From positions 186,001-250,000 of the forward strand of contig NZ_JAQTUH010000003.1 of assembly GCF_028710345.1 (NCBI RefSeq): DNA of 64,000 nucleotides. Reading direction: 5' to 3'. Below, piece by piece: positions 42,927-50,576 of the stretch; positions within the stretch are counted from its first letter, which is position 1; each line of letters begins with the position of its first letter. The notes under the pieces were generated by a model that saw only the letters and a list, made by a program, of their open reading frames with translations, did not search any database and was not told where the DNA came from. A program made the translations under genes and the position numbers. This DNA is from Sulfuricurvum sp. GTDB lineage: Bacteria > Campylobacterota > Campylobacteria > Campylobacterales > Sulfurimonadaceae.

Positions 42927-43874
42927 TTACGGTATCGGTACCGCTTTAACGATCTTCTCAATCAACTCGTCCACGTTTATCCCCTCTGCTTCCGCTTCAT
43001 AGGAGAGAACCAGACGGTGACGCATCAGCTCTTTGATAACCTGCGCAATATCACTCGGACTTACAAACTCTTTCCCACGTAAAAACGCCACCGCACGAGT
43101 TGCTTTAAACATATCGATACTCACACGCGGTGATGCTCCAAATTGCAAATACCCTTTTATCTCACCGAGTCCATACGCTTCGGGTTCACGGGTTGCGGTG
43201 ACAAGACTAATCATGTATCTCTCCACCTCTTCATCGATGTGGATTGCTTTGACTCTCTCTTTGAGTGCATTTAACGTCGCCGTATCGATGATGGGCTTGA
43301 TTGCCTCTCCTAGACCCGATCCGACACGCCGTGCGATGGAGAGTTCTTCTTCGGGAGTGTTGTAGCCGACATTGATTTTGAGCATAAAACGATCAAGTTG
43401 TGCTTCAGGGAGTGGATAAACACCTTCGTTCTCGATGGGATTTTGGGTCGCCATAACGAGAAACGGAGGGGAGAGTTTAAAACTCTCATCCCCCAGTGTC
43501 ACCTGTCGCTCCGCCATCACTTCCAGCAGTGCCGATTGCACTTTGGCCGGGGCGCGGTTGATCTCATCGGCGAGAAGGAGATTGGTAAAAATCGGCCCTT
43601 TTTTGATTTTGAATCCATTGTTTTGCGGATCATAGACCTCAGCACCCAAAATGTCACTCGGGAGCAAATCAGGGGTAAACTGCACCCGTTTAAATCCCAG
43701 TCCCAATGCCGCAGAGAGGGCATTAACGGTCGTTGTTTTCGCTAATCCCGGAACCCCCTCTATCAGGATATGCCCATCACACAGCAACCCGATCAACAAC
43801 CCGTCGATCATTTTTTCCTGCCCGACGACGACTTTGGCTACTTCGGAGCGTATTTGGTTAATTACATTTATCAT
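42927..43874 (-). CDS. MoxR-family AAA ATPase
   Basis: 315-residue AAA+ ATPase. Walker A GVPGLAKTT (40-48), Walker B LLLADEINRAP near 102, sensor I MATQNPIENEGVYPLPEAQLDRF near 150, and the late ASPRVSIDM sensor II segment. MoxR proteins act as chaperone-like partners for VWA proteins. ATG behind AAAAGGTG. It heads the run MoxR-DUF58-DUF4381-VWA-like-VWA-like. Confidence 0.92.
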   Translation of the reverse strand: MINVINQIRSEVAKVVVGQEKMIDGLLIGLLCDGHILIEGVPGLAKTTTVNALSAALGLGFKRVQFTPDLLPSDILGAEVYDPQNNGFKIKKGPIFTNLLLADEINRAPAKVQSALLEVMAERQVTLGDESFKLSPPFLVMATQNPIENEGVYPLPEAQLDRFMLKINVGYNTPEEELSIARRVGSGLGEAIKPIIDTATLNALKERVKAIHIDEEVERYMISLVTATREPEAYGLGEIKGYLQFGASPRVSIDMFKATRAVAFLRGKEFVSPSDIAQVIKELMRHRLVLSYEAEAEGINVDELIEKIVKAVPIP

Positions 43875-43945
43875 AGTGTCACCTTTTTATCTGTTGTGAG
43901 TTTACCTTGTTTCTTTTTAGGTTTCTCTTTCCATAGCAATCTGCA

Positions 43946-43976
43946 CCGTCATCCCGTACTAGATACGGGATCCATC
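43946..43976. repeat. Family A-like dispersed hairpin, copy 3 (short)
   Basis: ACCGTCATCCCGTACTAG begins here; ATCCCGTA and TACGGGAT pair as 8-bp arms (43951-43971) around CTAGA, then CCATC as in the longer copies. It lies 20-50 bases beyond the 3' end of the HNH gene and marks one edge of the AT-rich module. Confidence 0.75.
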
Positions 43977-43998
43977 TTCGGCATTTAATATCATTCTT

Positions 43999-45102
43999 CT
44001 ATACCAATCCCAGCTCTTCGCTAATGTCTTTGATGAGTTTGCTTAGTGGGCGTTTATGGAGGTCTTCATCTTTTTGATAATTGCACAGTAAGTATCGATA
44101 TATTTCATCGTCTGTAAATTTAAAATTTTCTTTTAATTCTCTAATATATGATTTAGTATAAATAGTTTTTTTAACAAGTAAGTCAATCACTATATCCGTA
44201 TGTTGTTCATACAGCTTATCTAATTTGAAATATTCATTATTTTTATCAACTCCATTTCCAGTTTTCAATTGTATTTCAATATCGTTCTCTTTAATTTTTT
44301 GTCTTTTTAATTGATAATAATTTATATTTTTTGGTATATATTTGAACCCAAAGTCTATCAATGTAATTTCATAAGGACTTTTCAAATTATCTTGAAAGGC
44401 ATCTTTGTCTTTTTTTGTATGATTACAAATTTGGCAACTTGGGATTAAATTGTAAAAACTCATAGCCAAAAATGGATAGATAGACTTAGGATAAAAGTGA
44501 TCTATTTCTGGTCTTAATTTTTTTTTGTCACTATCGACTACAAAAATATAATTTCTATTGCAATATGGGCACGTTTTTATGCCATGTTCTTTTACAAAAG
44601 CATATCTTGTATAGTCTGTAATCTTGTCCCATTCTTTTTCGTAAAAATTTATAAATATTTCATTTAAATGGTCAAAAGAATATTCTCTATATTGTTGAAT
44701 TAAAATTTCATCTACATTAACAATACTACTTTTATGTTTCAGAATAAATTTTTGTATATCTTTCTTTTTAGATACGTTACACGCTAAATTATTGTCCTTA
44801 CAAGTTTTTTTTAATATTCTAACATATAATTTTTTATAATCATAATCTTCTGTTTTTAAAAGTGGAAAAGTTTTAAGAAGAGCATGAAACTCAATAATCA
44901 ATTCTTTTAATCTATGAATCTCTCCAACTAATAGATCATCTAAATTGTTATAAATCCAATCAAGTATTTGATATTCAATAGATGTATGGTTATGAAATGA
45001 ATTTCGTTTTGTGAGTACTAAGTTATCCAAACCTGTTTTAATTTTTGAAAAATGCAAGTCTCTTAATACTTTATTTTTTGAATCAATAAGAATTTTAAGC
45101 AT
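43999..45102 (-). CDS. HNH nuclease, PtuB-like partner of the ABC-type ATPase (putative defence)
   Basis: 367 residues. A zinc/HNH core in the middle: Cys178-xx-Cys181 (CPYCNRNY), Asp201-His202 (EIDHFYPKS), Asn218 in FYNLIPS, Cys223-xx-Cys226 and His228. The spacing matches HNH nucleases of Septu (PtuB) and retron-type systems. The long N- and C-terminal parts are helical and unrecognised; known PtuB proteins are shorter, from memory. It overlaps the ATPase gene by 8 bases, same order as ptuA-ptuB. Strongly AT-rich. Confidence 0.72.
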   Translation of the reverse strand: MLKILIDSKNKVLRDLHFSKIKTGLDNLVLTKRNSFHNHTSIEYQILDWIYNNLDDLLVGEIHRLKELIIEFHALLKTFPLLKTEDYDYKKLYVRILKKTCKDNNLACNVSKKKDIQKFILKHKSSIVNVDEILIQQYREYSFDHLNEIFINFYEKEWDKITDYTRYAFVKEHGIKTCPYCNRNYIFVVDSDKKKLRPEIDHFYPKSIYPFLAMSFYNLIPSCQICNHTKKDKDAFQDNLKSPYEITLIDFGFKYIPKNINYYQLKRQKIKENDIEIQLKTGNGVDKNNEYFKLDKLYEQHTDIVIDLLVKKTIYTKSYIRELKENFKFTDDEIYRYLLCNYQKDEDLHKRPLSKLIKDISEELGLV

Positions 45103-46288
45103 TACTTTTTTCTTTCAACAATGCTTCAAGCTCAGATATTCTCTTTAAATATTTATCTTCTTTTGTTTCAATCTGATAAAATTTATTATATAAATTTTCT
45201 AATTTATTTTGCAATAGTTCTTCTCCTACGGCATCAATTGTAAACTTTATTTCTTCTTGTGTTAAATCAATAGTAGGTAAATCTACTATCAAATATTTTA
45301 AAATTTTACTGAGCCTATCTTTCGCAAACTCTCCCATCAAACCATCTTCCATAAAAAATCCGTGAGAAAGAAGGGTGTGGATGTTGGCTCCAAAAGTTTG
45401 TTCATTATCTTTAAATGGATGTTTTTGTATACCATTTTCTAAAAATATTACATTTTCTTTGGGGATGTCGGAGAGGATAAAGGGGGAATGAGAAGCAAAA
45501 ATGATATGTAAATTTTTATCTAATTTATTTACCAATGATTGAATAAAAATTTGAATAACTTTTTTTTGCCAATTTGGATGCATAAAAAGTTCTATTTCAT
45601 CAATACACACTATTAAGCTTTGATTTTGTACTTTTTCTAAAAGTAAATAGATACAACTAAGATAATAAATCATAGCTTTTTCACCACTACTATTGATTTT
45701 ATTAGAGGATTGATTTTGAAGGAATGGTAGTTTTTCGATTTCTTTTTTAACTTGTTGATATAATGGATCTGTATTATTAAGTTCTGTTTTTGCTTTACCA
45801 ATATAGTTATCAAAATTTGTTGCTGTGAAGCCGTCATCTCCCATCAAGCCAAAGTAGTGATTAATCTTTATATTAATTGTATTTTCATGTGCTGAGATAT
45901 TAATATATCCAAATAACTTATCATCTATATTAATCGATTCCAAAGCACACTCAATTTGTTTAGTTGAAGTATATATTATTTTATTATTTGTTTTATTCTG
46001 AAATACACATACATAATTTATTTCTTTTTTTGAAAGTTCATTTATTAAAAATTCAAATATACTACTTTTCCCACTTCCATTTTCTCCCACAATCGCTGTG
46101 ATATTGATATTTTTACCAAAAAAGTTTTCAATATGTTCTTTTGGTTTAATATCTAATACGCAATCATTTTCTAAAGTACAATCATCATTATATTTGTCAT
46201 GAAATGTACACTCAAACCGAGGACTAAAATTAAACCCTTGCTTATCTATATTTTTATACTTTTCAACCCATAAATAGACTAATTCCAT
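45095..46288 (-). CDS. ABC/SMC-type AAA ATPase, PtuA-like (putative defence)
   Basis: 397 residues. Walker A GENGSGKSS (68-76), ABC signature NSSGEKAM (199-206), Walker B LIVCIDEIELFMHP (225-238) and switch histidine FASHSPF (His267) are intact. The family (OLD/RecF-like) uses ATP to gate a partner nuclease. A short C-terminal coiled coil (about 360-395) could bind the HNH protein encoded next. No TOPRIM domain is seen, so the nuclease must be in trans. AT-rich compared with the flanking Bat genes. Confidence 0.78.
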   Translation of the reverse strand: MELVYLWVEKYKNIDKQGFNFSPRFECTFHDKYNDDCTLENDCVLDIKPKEHIENFFGKNINITAIVGENGSGKSSIFEFLINELSKKEINYVCVFQNKTNNKIIYTSTKQIECALESINIDDKLFGYINISAHENTINIKINHYFGLMGDDGFTATNFDNYIGKAKTELNNTDPLYQQVKKEIEKLPFLQNQSSNKINSSGEKAMIYYLSCIYLLLEKVQNQSLIVCIDEIELFMHPNWQKKVIQIFIQSLVNKLDKNLHIIFASHSPFILSDIPKENVIFLENGIQKHPFKDNEQTFGANIHTLLSHGFFMEDGLMGEFAKDRLSKILKYLIVDLPTIDLTQEEIKFTIDAVGEELLQNKLENLYNKFYQIETKEDKYLKRISELEALLKEKSNA

Positions 46289-46318
46289 CCAAATTCCTAA
46301 TTTTGTTTTTCTTTTTTT

Positions 46319-46392
46319 GGGATGGATCCCCGGGTCAAGCCCGAGGATGACAAACCGTCCGTTTTACCCTTCGACTAGCTCAGGGCGAACGA
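46319..46392. repeat. Abutting partial copies of repeat families A and B
   Basis: 46319-46351 carries the family A half GGATGGATCCCCGGGTCAAG plus CCCGAGGATGAC, in the opposite orientation to copy 1. Sixteen bases on, 46367-46392 carries a family B half (CCCTTCGACTAGCTCAGGGC). They lie just upstream of the ATPase gene and mark the other edge of the module. The remaining 146 bases to the hipA stop show no further gene, only a short GAAATA/TATTTC pairing. Confidence 0.8.
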
Positions 46393-46538
46393 CAAAATTT
46401 ATATGTGTTTTAATGGTATCTTTTATGCCCTTAATTCATCGAAATTCTATTTTGCACCTCTAGGGAAGCGTTAAAACAAGATTTGCTCTCGTGAAATACG
46501 CTATATTTCGGACGGCATCATTTAAAAAAATTTTCATA

Positions 46539-47687
46539 TCAAAAGCTCTCCCTCCAACATCCTCTCAGTTTATCTAAAAATTGCAAAACACTAGCGTCAT
46601 TGGTTTCAAATGCATCCATCTCATCTTTGGTTTTTCTGAGTGCTTCTGCACACTCTAGCAAAATAGTTTCATACTCTTTGTTGGACAAACCGCAACTGAG
46701 TTTTGCAAAATTTTTATATGTTTTTTCTTTCCACCACAGTTTTGCATCACTCATTTTTAGAGCAGGTATATCGTTTTGGATGTAAACGGTTGTAGTAATG
46801 ACATCATAAATAGGGGCTAGAAAACTATCGGTAAAGTCGTTTTCATACAATATTCCATAATTTTTTAAATGACCATCCCCATTTTGAAGAAAGTGATTCA
46901 TAACCAGTGCTTTAAAAAATACCCTTAGTGACTCTTTCAACTTTTGGGGAGCTATAACATCTTTGATGATTCGGGCACACTCTTCGTAACTTCCCTCGTA
47001 TTTTTGCTCCGTTCCTCTGCCACTGAGTACACACATATCCTCGAATCCAAGATAGGTTCCCTCTTCTTTGACATCAAATCGTTTCATGATAAACATCGAG
47101 TAATCGTCACTGAGATAAAACTCTGGCGTTGGCAGATGTGCATTTTGAATCGCTCTCATGCAAAAATATTCATTAAGCGCGAGATTTGGATACTCTTTTT
47201 CCCATGATTTCACGATGTAATGCTCGAACTTCATGGTTGTTTTGTTGTGTGCGCCTAGGAGCAATTTAGGTTGTACCCCTGAGACACCAGAACGAATAGC
47301 AAACTTCTCCATCAGCTCATTAAAAAGGTTTTGTTTAGAGGAGTGAACGATCTCTTCGAGTTCTAAAACATCCGTGTCACTGATGATTTTTTCAAATTTT
47401 ACACGACCCAACATATAAGGACCGATAAGTTTCAGGAGGTTTATCTCATCCATGGTCACTATTTTTGCAAAGTGATTTTTTATCACATCTTTGAGGGCAC
47501 CCTCGGGCATATTCATCTGAAAAATGGGATGAAGCGATTTACTCACCCAACTCTCAGCTCGAATCGGCATAGTGAGACTGACTAACTCTTGTGAATCGCT
47601 CAAATAATTAAAAATATAGTTGCCATCTTCTTTTGAAAGTTCACCGCTGAGTGTTTTGTTGGTATAGACTTTGAGTTTATCTGCCAT
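46539..47687 (-). CDS. hipA: HipA-family serine/threonine kinase toxin
   Basis: 382 residues. N-subdomain with MPEGALKDV, G-loop SGVQPKLLL (136-144), ATP-lysine Lys160 (YIVKSW), catalytic Asp271 in QNGDGHLKNYG, and metal Asp295 in APIYDVIT. HipA kinases phosphorylate tRNA synthetases (GltX in E. coli) to cause growth arrest and persistence. Overlaps the 3' end of hipB by 11 bases. All kinase residues are in place, so it is likely active. Confidence 0.9.
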   Translation of the reverse strand: MADKLKVYTNKTLSGELSKEDGNYIFNYLSDSQELVSLTMPIRAESWVSKSLHPIFQMNMPEGALKDVIKNHFAKIVTMDEINLLKLIGPYMLGRVKFEKIISDTDVLELEEIVHSSKQNLFNELMEKFAIRSGVSGVQPKLLLGAHNKTTMKFEHYIVKSWEKEYPNLALNEYFCMRAIQNAHLPTPEFYLSDDYSMFIMKRFDVKEEGTYLGFEDMCVLSGRGTEQKYEGSYEECARIIKDVIAPQKLKESLRVFFKALVMNHFLQNGDGHLKNYGILYENDFTDSFLAPIYDVITTTVYIQNDIPALKMSDAKLWWKEKTYKNFAKLSCGLSNKEYETILLECAEALRKTKDEMDAFETNDASVLQFLDKLRGCWRESF

Positions 47688-47919
47688 CTTGTAACTCTTC
47701 TAATGTTCTTGGGCGATCTTTTGGACGGAGGGCAAACTCAACACCCAACAAGGTCAAAAGTATTTCTACTTTTTTAATCCCCACTTCATCGATAAAACCA
47801 TTTTCGATTTTAGAAAGAGTCCGTTTTGTGATACCTGAATACGCTTCTAAATCACTTTGTGACCACTTCTTTTGTTTGCGTAAACGTTGTATCTCTTTAC
47901 CAAGTTCTTCTAAAGTCAA
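47677..47919 (-). CDS. hipB: HipB-like XRE-family antitoxin
   Basis: About 80 residues with a helix-turn-helix of the Cro/XRE type: LGKEIQRLRKQKKWSQSDLEAYSGI then RTLSKIENG. The start is probably TTG 47919, because AGGAG ends 5 bases in front; a GTG two codons earlier touches the ribosome site. Downstream tail RPKDRPRTLEELQDG may reach the HipA pocket. A perfect 14-bp palindrome lies directly upstream as its likely operator. Confidence 0.88.
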   Translation of the reverse strand: MTLEELGKEIQRLRKQKKWSQSDLEAYSGITKRTLSKIENGFIDEVGIKKVEILLTLLGVEFALRPKDRPRTLEELQDGR

Positions 47920-47933
47920 AATCACTCCTAATA

Positions 47934-47947
47934 AGAAATATATTTCT
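47934..47947. promoter_or_regulatory. Putative HipB operator
   Basis: AGAAATATATTTCT is a perfect 14-bp inverted repeat 14 bases upstream of the proposed hipB start. HipB-type antitoxins bind such palindromes to repress their own operon. Confidence 0.55.
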
Positions 47948-47977
47948 CATAATAGGCTTTTAAAGCTTAAATAGGAA

Positions 47978-49069
47978 TTATACTTCTCTTAATCTCTTCT
48001 TCGCTTCACGTAAATCCAGTGTTCCCGCTTCGAGTTCGGCTATAACCTCATCAAAGCGTTTCTCTCCTGAGAGAGCGAGGAGCATTATCAGCTCTTTTGT
48101 ATTTTTAGTTCCATCCCAAAACTCTTTTTTTCGGCGTCTCGGACGTATTTTCCATAATCGTTTCCCAGCTTCACCCAATACAATTCCCAACACCACTAAT
48201 CCCCCATAAAGGGTATAGCGCATCCAGCCGCTCCAATCACGTAAAGCGGGAGGATCGAGGAGGTTGGAGCGCTCAAACCCTTGTGCCACTTCGATTGCTA
48301 CCGCCTCACTCTCTAAGCGTTTAATCTTTTGACTTTGGGTATCGAACACCTCGATAGAGATTTTCGGAATCACAAAACTTTGTTCACTCACGAGGGCGAA
48401 TTCCTGACGTATCTCCCCCCTATAACCGTTGACATCGGGAGTAATATTTTTTTGGGGAGCTTCCGCAAATACATGGACACCGCTGATATTAAGCTCATAA
48501 GGGATGTAGCGCTCAAGATTCCCCGTCCCCCGTAGATAAAGGCTCAGATGTAGCGGTTCGTGCGCTATGACACTGCGCTTATCGACACTCACTTCCAATG
48601 AAATATCCCCAATCAACGTCGCTCTGTTCTCCCCTACGCGAATACTCACGTCGGGCAAAAGAGCCTCCTCTTCCAAAATATCCTCTTTGCTGAGATTATC
48701 ACGTCCCAAAACAGTGTTTTCAACTGCTCCTGATGGGGTATAGCGAACCAATGCTTTTAGCGCGACACTCACTGTTCCCGTATTTGTCGGAGTCACGAGT
48801 AAATCGATTGTATCGCTCCGCTTCCCTTGTAGTACTTGGCTTTTTTCAGAGAGAATAGAGGTGGTATACGAGGGGTTATCCGCCAATTTCAATTTCGCCG
48901 AATACTCCGCTGCACTGCTATCAAACGTACACACATACCGTATCACACCGCTTTGCCCGACCCGAAGCGTTTGCGGGGATTCTACTACACGCCATTGGTA
49001 CTTCATCCCCCATGCCATAGTGTTGAGGATTAAAATCGCACCAATAATCCTACCAAGGCTTCGTTTCAT
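47978..49069 (-). CDS. BatD-like membrane protein
   Basis: 363 residues: signal peptide (about 1-20), two beta-rich Ig-like regions (about 25-125 and 145-255), one transmembrane helix near 280-298, and a basic cytoplasmic tail (KIRPRRRKKEFW) with a helical end. This matches BatD in layout though it is shorter than many. ATG 49069 follows AAAGGAG by 6 bases. Overlaps the VWA/TPR gene by 20 bases. Last gene of the intact BatA-BatB/C-BatD run. Confidence 0.78.
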   Translation of the reverse strand: MKRSLGRIIGAILILNTMAWGMKYQWRVVESPQTLRVGQSGVIRYVCTFDSSAAEYSAKLKLADNPSYTTSILSEKSQVLQGKRSDTIDLLVTPTNTGTVSVALKALVRYTPSGAVENTVLGRDNLSKEDILEEEALLPDVSIRVGENRATLIGDISLEVSVDKRSVIAHEPLHLSLYLRGTGNLERYIPYELNISGVHVFAEAPQKNITPDVNGYRGEIRQEFALVSEQSFVIPKISIEVFDTQSQKIKRLESEAVAIEVAQGFERSNLLDPPALRDWSGWMRYTLYGGLVVLGIVLGEAGKRLWKIRPRRRKKEFWDGTKNTKELIMLLALSGEKRFDEVIAELEAGTLDLREAKKRLREV

Positions 49070-50576
49070 GGACACTCCTTTGATTGATGAGTTCGTATTG
49101 ATGCGAACTCAGGGCGGCTTTCCCCTGTGAGAGGGAGAAACGTGGGTCTGCTTGAACTTTTTTTCCCGCATCTCCCGCACCCGAGGAGGCAATATCACTT
49201 TGCATATTCGATCCGCCCCCCTCTTTGGTTTTTTTCCCCTCACCCGCGGGTTTGTTCTCGTCTGATGAGAATTTATCTTTTTTCTCTTTACGGACATTGA
49301 GCGATTTTTGCTCTTGCTCTATGGCAATCGCTTTTAGATTCTGGTCGGCTTGATGGCTATAATGCAGAGTGAGCGATTTGAGCAGAGCATTACGAGCGTT
49401 TTCAAACTCATTTAATCGGATATAGCAGTTACCCATATTGTAATAAACATAGGATTTAAACATCGGATTATCGGAGCGGATTGAGCGATACACTGCTAAT
49501 GCTTCAGGATATTTTCCCCCTTTATACAGAGAAGCTGCACGGTTAAATTTCCCCTCTGCTGAGTCCAAATACCCGAACCATTTGGCAGAGTGTTCGTATT
49601 TCCCCTGAGAATATGCCATCTCTCCCGCAATCTGATAAGGGTAATCGAGAACCCCTGCGTGGAGGCTGATTCCGATGAGGGTTAGGAGGGGTATTATTTT
49701 TTTAACCACCCTCTCCCCTAATGTCGTGTATGCCAACACAAAAGCAATCATCCCCAAAATCAGTGGAATGTAAAAAAGCTCTTTATAGCGGGTCACGGTC
49801 GTTGATCCGGCAAAATCTTCGCCCCTCTCCCGCTCAATCCACTCTAAAACACTTTTACTATCTGCCCCTTCGATTACTTTTCCTCCGCTCATCGAGGAAA
49901 TTTGGTTAATCGCCTCATTTCGAGAACTCACTACGATATGCCCACCCTCATCTTTGAGCAATCCCTCATCGCTTTGGAGTGTGCTCCCCTGAGCTGAAGC
50001 TAACATCACGACACACACCTTCAGTCCATGCTCTTGCGCGTATGCCGACTCTTTTTCATAACTCAGTTCATCCCCTCCATCGGTGAACAAAACGACAAGG
50101 GGATGCTGCGCATGGGACATTTTGCGTGAAAGCTCTAATGCGCCCATCACCTCTGTCCCTTTGGTAATAATCTGCGATTCATCGAGCGAGCTAAAGAGGT
50201 GTTTGAGAAGCTCACTATCTTTGGTGAGAGGAGAGAGAACGATAGCGCTCGTCGTATGGGCAAGTACCCCAAAGCGATCACGGCTATCAGACTCTACCAC
50301 CTCTCTCAAAACCCTCTTTGCCGCCCCCAAACGGCTCGGAGTTATATCCGTAGCCCTCATCGAATACGACATATCGAGCGCTAAAATAACATCACTCCCC
50401 GCCTCTTCGACACTAATCGGTTTTTCATTCACTACCGGACGTCCAAGCGAGAGGATTAAACACGCCAAAGAGAGTAAGAGCCACCCTTGAAAATGCCATT
50501 TATACCGACGTACACCCAAAAGATAAAGGGGTATGAACCAAAGGGCAAAAAGCCAAAGCGGTGAGAGGAAACTCAT
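49050..50576 (-). CDS. BatB/BatC fusion: VWA domain plus TPR membrane protein
   Basis: 508 residues: two N-terminal helices, then a VWA domain with an intact MIDAS (LALDMSYSM, later FTDGGDELS), a helix near 280-305, a second signal-like stretch (AGVLDYPYQIAG), three TPR units (EMAYSQGKYEHSAKWFGYL, FNRAASLYKGGKYPEALAVY, YNMGNCYIRLNEFENARNAL) and a low-complexity G/K/E/D-rich tail. Such BatB-BatC fusions occur in Bat (Bacteroides aerotolerance) operons. Start in ATGA overlap with batA. Confidence 0.87.
   Translation of the reverse strand: MSFLSPLWLFALWFIPLYLLGVRRYKWHFQGWLLLSLACLILSLGRPVVNEKPISVEEAGSDVILALDMSYSMRATDITPSRLGAAKRVLREVVESDSRDRFGVLAHTTSAIVLSPLTKDSELLKHLFSSLDESQIITKGTEVMGALELSRKMSHAQHPLVVLFTDGGDELSYEKESAYAQEHGLKVCVVMLASAQGSTLQSDEGLLKDEGGHIVVSSRNEAINQISSMSGGKVIEGADSKSVLEWIERERGEDFAGSTTVTRYKELFYIPLILGMIAFVLAYTTLGERVVKKIIPLLTLIGISLHAGVLDYPYQIAGEMAYSQGKYEHSAKWFGYLDSAEGKFNRAASLYKGGKYPEALAVYRSIRSDNPMFKSYVYYNMGNCYIRLNEFENARNALLKSLTLHYSHQADQNLKAIAIEQEQKSLNVRKEKKDKFSSDENKPAGEGKKTKEGGGSNMQSDIASSGAGDAGKKVQADPRFSLSQGKAALSSHQYELINQRSVHETKPW

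Follow-up and report, generated by a model that had tools for sequence, protein, structure and literature searches.

Septu systems pair a PtuA-type ATPase with a PtuB-type HNH nuclease. In known PtuAB systems, the ATPase and HNH sites are both needed and the nucleic acid that is cut is tRNA-Tyr or nicked DNA (PMC13096335, PMC11555353). DefenseFinder also calls the PADLOC candidate PDC-M62 Septu, and in a survey of the Bacillus cereus group 203 of the 244 PADLOC/DefenseFinder Septu duplicates were PDC-M62 (PMC11811056). Our search of the open literature turned up no functional assay of PDC-M62 itself. Here we analysed a 64,000-nucleotide stretch of a Sulfuricurvum sp. genome (the window) and found that one gene pair within it is an already catalogued PDC-M62 candidate of Septu type, in a variant form. 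Comparison of relatives revealed that the centre of the ATPase is swapped between them while the C-terminal part of the ATPase and the nuclease stay together, which suggests that the swapped piece is a plug-in infection sensor.

Family assignment of the pair

The pair consists of a compact PtuA-like ABC ATPase of 397 amino acids (PDC-M62A, 45095..46288; PADLOC, Pfam, Foldseek and length rank) and a PtuB-like HNH nuclease of 367 amino acids (PDC-M62B, 43999..45102; PADLOC, structure model and PtuB alignment). Both reading frames are intact and share 8 bp (ATGCTTAA); these and all other window genes and motifs located below are on the reverse strand. Against PADLOC profiles, the ATPase matches PDC-M62A (E = 2e-96) and the nuclease matches PDC-M62B over residues 3–365 (E = 2e-66), with scores far above those for PtuA/PtuB and PDC-M01. 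The ATPase also matches Pfam AAA_21 (E = 5e-18), and PtuA proteins are the best Foldseek matches of its structure model, which is weak (pLDDT 65). As PDC-M62 is listed in PADLOC and counted as Septu by DefenseFinder, the pair is not the undescribed system that a previous reading of these letters without database searches (the sequence-only reading) had proposed. The Septu-like pairing of an ATPase with an HNH nuclease that it recognized is upheld by profiles, fold matches, gene order and overlap. The profile matches are to defence families rather than to an ordinary non-defence family, and the two genes are paired in 73 of the 80 relatives retrieved, so neither of the objections that reading had foreseen applies. 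In most relatives the genes are adjacent, co-directional and usually overlapping, in A–B order, and some relatives adjoin other defence genes.

Both window proteins match the PDC-M62 models over their full length or nearly so, and gene order and overlap agree. However, the M62A models have 597–746 positions and a centre of at least 200 residues, whereas the window ATPase is matched in two stretches with the centre missing; we regard it as a compact form of the family, as there are two other compact copies. The window nuclease differs from most of the family in a SAP-like insertion. By structure, Septu PtuAB of E. coli (PDB 8eea and 8ee4) likewise combines a PtuA-type ATPase with a PtuB-type HNH nuclease and shares the H–N spacing of the HNH site: H202 and N218 are 16 residues apart, as are the essential H75 and N91 of Septu EcB88 PtuB. 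Identity to the window pair in structural alignments is nevertheless only about 10–18%, and the near-invariant N-terminus and exchangeable centre are features found in the M62 set. Retron and Septu PtuA proteins are the PDB profile matches of the ATPase, and type I-A retron effectors (Ec78/Eco7 and Ec83 PtuAB) are the top matches for both proteins (E = 2e-21 for the ATPase; E = 4e-5, to retron PtuB, for the nuclease). Unlike a retron, the pair has no reverse transcriptase among its identified neighbours (hipBA, bat genes, moxR and DUF58), and its NCBIfam scores of 51 bits (PtuA) and 16 bits (PtuB) are far under the equivalog cut-offs of 500 and 150 bits, respectively.

The ATPase shows the Septu combination of an ABC ATPase fold with Walker A (GENGSGKS, 46064..46087), a signature-like motif (NSSGE with S200, G202 and E203, 45680..45694), Walker B (IVCIDE, 45596..45613) and the switch histidine H267 (45488..45490), followed by the family motif FGANIHTLL (45368..45394), all placed by alignment. 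Walker A from G68 to K74, S200-x-G202-E203, D230-E231 and H267 vary little or not at all among 46 aligned sequences. A Pfam search gave no TOPRIM match, which sets the protein apart from the OLD family and Gabija GajA with their C-terminal TOPRIM. In the nuclease, the HNH core extends from C178 to N227 (44422..44571; Pfam and alignment), and an alignment of 62 nucleases shows conservation of C178/C181/N182, D201/H202, N218 and C223/C226/N227. The C-terminal tail (KRPLSKLIKDISEELGLV, 44002..44055), identified by alignment, is also conserved. The motifs assigned to both proteins from the letters alone, and the lack of a TOPRIM domain, are thus confirmed.

The same reading had taken the nuclease to be unusually long, with large unrecognized helical extensions, and neither point survives. 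Its 64 homologues span 278–381 amino acids and the PADLOC PDC-M62B models 328–401 positions, and its structure model (pLDDT 93) aligns over the full length with four PtuB entries (Z = 10.6–11.3; next unrelated row, 5.5). This match comes from a second structural alignment, as Foldseek alone returned no significant match for the nuclease. Abnormal length is instead a feature of the ATPase, which that reading missed. The only extra part of the nuclease relative to the family is a stretch of around 45 residues (83–128; 44719..44856) that superposes on the SAP-like C-terminal domain of CDNF/MANF (41 residues, 1.4 Å, Z = 5.5). With three segments tried, Pfam SAP matched a 58% identical relative (G241) at E = 6e-4, under the curated cut-off, and did not match the window's own 83–128 segment; we call the insertion SAP-like, not a SAP domain, and it may add nucleic-acid binding. 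It is carried by the window copy, G241, G030 and, more divergently, L151, and is absent from most relatives. We considered whether the insertion compensates for the short ATPase and rejected this idea: G241 and G030 combine the insertion with long ATPases, and L244 and L245 have short ATPases with ordinary nucleases.

Other arrangements were seen in passing. The same genome holds a second M62-like pair of 684 and 326 amino acids (L072, G000:C5:80967-82582) and a weaker third candidate (L003, G000:C9:57504-58462). Two small open reading frames (about 103 and 121 amino acids) lie between M62A and M62B in L051, L060 and L317, an arrangement that recurs in Sulfurovum-like genomes. In Ancylomarina (Bacteroidota; L309, 2818-7916), tandem M62A-like ATPases of 609 and 664 amino acids precede a single nuclease of 414 amino acids. 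A Segatella copri plasmid (L333) carries an M62-like pair near a Qat anti-phage system and a transposase; its annotated ATPase of 410 amino acids is probably truncated at the start.

The insertion site and scars of the ATPase start

The M62 pair and a HipB–HipA pair (46539..47925; Pfam HipA_C, Couple_hipA and HTH_3), which lies between batD and the ATPase gene, interrupt a Bat operon of the Sulfuricurvum sp. host. The host genes batD (47978..49075) and moxR (42927..43874), identified by Pfam and congener comparison, lie upstream and downstream of the insertion site, respectively. The HipB–HipA pair belongs to the same insert but, as far as is known, not to the defence system; L070 likewise has a HipA/HipB pair ahead of M62A. 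Of the 20 congeners inspected, 13 have batD joined directly to moxR, and in the other 7 further genes lie between the two or next to them. An M62 pair is immediately upstream of moxR in three of the congeners inspected (G461, G390 and G303), and other genes occupy the junction in four (G452, G459, G441 and G438). The junction (window positions 43875-47977) is an insertion hotspot.

The joined batD–moxR junction of congeners is better evidence for an accessory block than are repeats or GC content. The sequence-only reading was correct that the block is AT-rich (about 25.6% GC compared with 44% in the flanks), but its argument from composition and flanking repeats to acquisition does not hold, because low GC is typical of the whole family (median of 25% versus 35% in the flanks, n = 86) and the dispersed palindromic repeat upstream of the pair (46311..46351, no strand assigned) has around 20 further copies in the genome. 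For the latter reason, we rejected the flanking repeats as element ends; the repeat is probably of a REP-like dispersed type. No repeat turned up in either of the searched flank stretches.

The start of the ATPase is near-invariant (codons 1–26, 46211..46288; alignment) and is also found alone elsewhere, as a scar: the first 26–40 codons occur by themselves, then stop, at operon sites of the kind that M62 pairs occupy. In one congener (G452, locus L113), 250 nt upstream of moxR match the window at 93% identity, and the similarity breaks off at around codon 27. Other scars lie upstream of a cobQ-like gene (G494 and G571) or a modC-like gene (G186 and G499); the scar loci are L113, L134 and L136 (both G186), L135 (G266), L183, L224, L225, L226, L229 and L133. 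Several of them precede defence-type genes: an NgoPII-type restriction enzyme accompanied by a C5 methyltransferase-like gene, a HEC-02A-matching ATPase and a DUF2971/PDC-S31 gene. A PD-(D/E)XK-like protein and a membrane protein also lie behind scars. The clustering of the breaks is partly search bias, as the query was the leader itself. At least L225, L226 and L183 are relics because they are frameshifted or end in junk, and on this evidence we rejected the idea that the ATPase start is a leader gene of its own with an essential role. A conserved DNA signal was also rejected, with synonymous sites of codons 2–28 at 0.65 compared with 0.59 expected; as these sites barely exceed expectation, conservation of the start is at the protein level.

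A compact ATPase

The window ATPase is the shortest of 95 homologues that contain both Walker A and FGANIHTLL, and the distance between the two motifs is smallest in it (231 residues; median, 381); the next shortest proteins are L244 (417 amino acids) and L245 (439 amino acids). What is missing is sequence between Walker A and the signature motif, where the window protein has 116 amino acids and others have 127–381. The window gene aligns with its relatives up to around nt 240 and again from around nt 685, near Walker B. The segment that is exchanged among relatives, and is unusually short here, runs between Walker A and Walker B (45605..46063; comparison), with Walker A at its left edge, as placed by alignment and DNA boundaries, and Walker B near its right edge.

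Across 89 pairs, the window centre is the shortest and is a singleton without detectable relative, and may therefore be a remnant. The compact centre could represent a minimal sensor; alternatively, the copy may have lost its sensor. If the ATPase centre was deleted and sensing lost with it, the pair would be inactive or purely toxic when released, and M62 relics are indeed common at the same kinds of site. Yet both reading frames and all catalytic motifs are intact and compact forms recur, in L244 and L245, so we consider such degeneration unlikely, although it deserves to be taken seriously. We infer that the window copy is active and would serve in defence.

Exchange of the ATPase centre and its possible role

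We cut 89 pairs into N-part, centre and C-part of the ATPase and N-part and C-part of the nuclease. The centres form 36 sequence families, compared with a single family each for the ATPase N-part, the ATPase C-part and the nuclease C-part, and four for the nuclease N-part. Profile comparison at more than 90% probability related 1 of 55 pairs of centre families, with a sensitivity limited by small alignments, versus 55 of 55 for the C-part. Pfam identified no recurrent named domain in the centres of the ATPase members. Centre identity is uncorrelated with nuclease identity (r = 0.02, Mantel p = 0.11; 89 pairs), while identity of the ATPase C-part follows that of the nuclease (r = 0.54, p = 0.001; 89 pairs), as expected of a binding interface. 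Where nuclease cores are at least 85% identical, the centres are unrelated in 26 of 27 pairs, which come from 25 distinct loci and are not independent. At the insertion site of the window pair, exchange of this kind is also seen between G461 and G390. Nine near-identical E. coli loci showed no exchange, in what is a small within-species sample. We found no description of centre exchange in open papers; preprints and closed papers were outside this search.

The pair is probably a Septu-type two-component anti-phage system of the PDC-M62 subgroup, in which the ATPase would detect infection and the nuclease would cut nucleic acid. By analogy with PtuAB, the PtuA-like ATPase would restrain the PtuB-like HNH nuclease before infection; once the ATPase detected infection, the nuclease would be released and would cut tRNA or nicked or phage DNA, as reported of known PtuAB, and phage replication would stop. 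The exchanged centre would recognize the trigger, and the ATPase C-terminal part together with the nuclease would form the effector unit. We infer this role for the centre, as a trigger-recognition cassette that can be exchanged while the effector stays constant, from its wholesale replacement, which does not depend on the effector. HsdS specificity subunits of type I restriction systems exchange a specificity segment between conserved blocks. The M62 ATPase would work in the same way, with the remainder constant, but it has no homology to HsdS, and its exchanged part is embedded in an ATPase, with the P-loop on one side and Walker B on the other. Rad50 and SMC proteins have a coiled coil between these motifs. 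The idea of a new sensing part, which the sequence-only reading had placed in the ends of the nuclease, is plausible, but the evidence favours the exchanged ATPase centre as its location, and the SAP-like insertion of the nuclease only secondarily.

Exchange by itself does not prove sensing. The centre could instead be a fast-changing surface that evades phage-encoded inhibitors, with the trigger read elsewhere, for example in the ATPase C-part or the nuclease. Swapping unrelated segments would serve evasion equally well, and the window copy is nearly without the segment while its motifs are still intact. Wholly unrelated modules of 200–380 residues at constant boundaries exceed what evasion needs, however, and other exposed parts, such as the nuclease, stay constant; we regard evasion as improbable compared with trigger recognition by the centre.

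It is very unlikely that the centres simply diverged very fast from a common ancestor without exchange. Small alignments limit the detection of remote homology, and a shared fold is possible, but the edges are sharp in DNA that is 85–95% identical, which argues for recombination rather than fast divergence. In 24 of 26 pairs, DNA identity stops at most around 45 nt from the Walker A codons, and it resumes between 50 nt before and 344 nt after the signature. The loci L053 and L056 represent the same site in two species of the Sulfurospirillum group; their nucleases are 95% identical and the flanking genes around 90% identical. These loci are 90% identical over 3,062 nt up to ATPase nt 251 and 85% identical over 4,416 nt from nt 1060; nothing is detectable between nt 251 and 1060, and the centres are at shuffled identity (0.23). 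Conversely, centres are 85% identical despite diverged nucleases in L315/L047 and L269/L047, and in L315 and L047 the centre and C-part share 89% DNA identity. A housekeeping role as a Rad50/SMC-like repair ATPase with a nuclease is scarcely credible, for although the ATPase fold is common to Rad50, SMC and RecF, the pair is patchily distributed (67 of 397 genomes of the phylum), is inserted into a host operon at a variable site and has its profile matches in defence families.

With recognition by the exchanged centre as the preferred reading, we lean, if only slightly, towards PDC-M62 in Campylobacterota being a combinatorial immune receptor, in which unrelated cassettes are recombined at the P-loop and Walker B coding sequences and the effector is left unchanged, so that a lineage could alter what its Septu-type system senses. 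The near-identical nucleases with unrelated ATPase centres are a natural set for domain-swap tests of Septu activation, for which the compact form in the window would offer a natural minimal chassis. Should phage specificity reside in the centre, the system would be a bacterial receptor that diversifies by swapping modules within an ATPase head.
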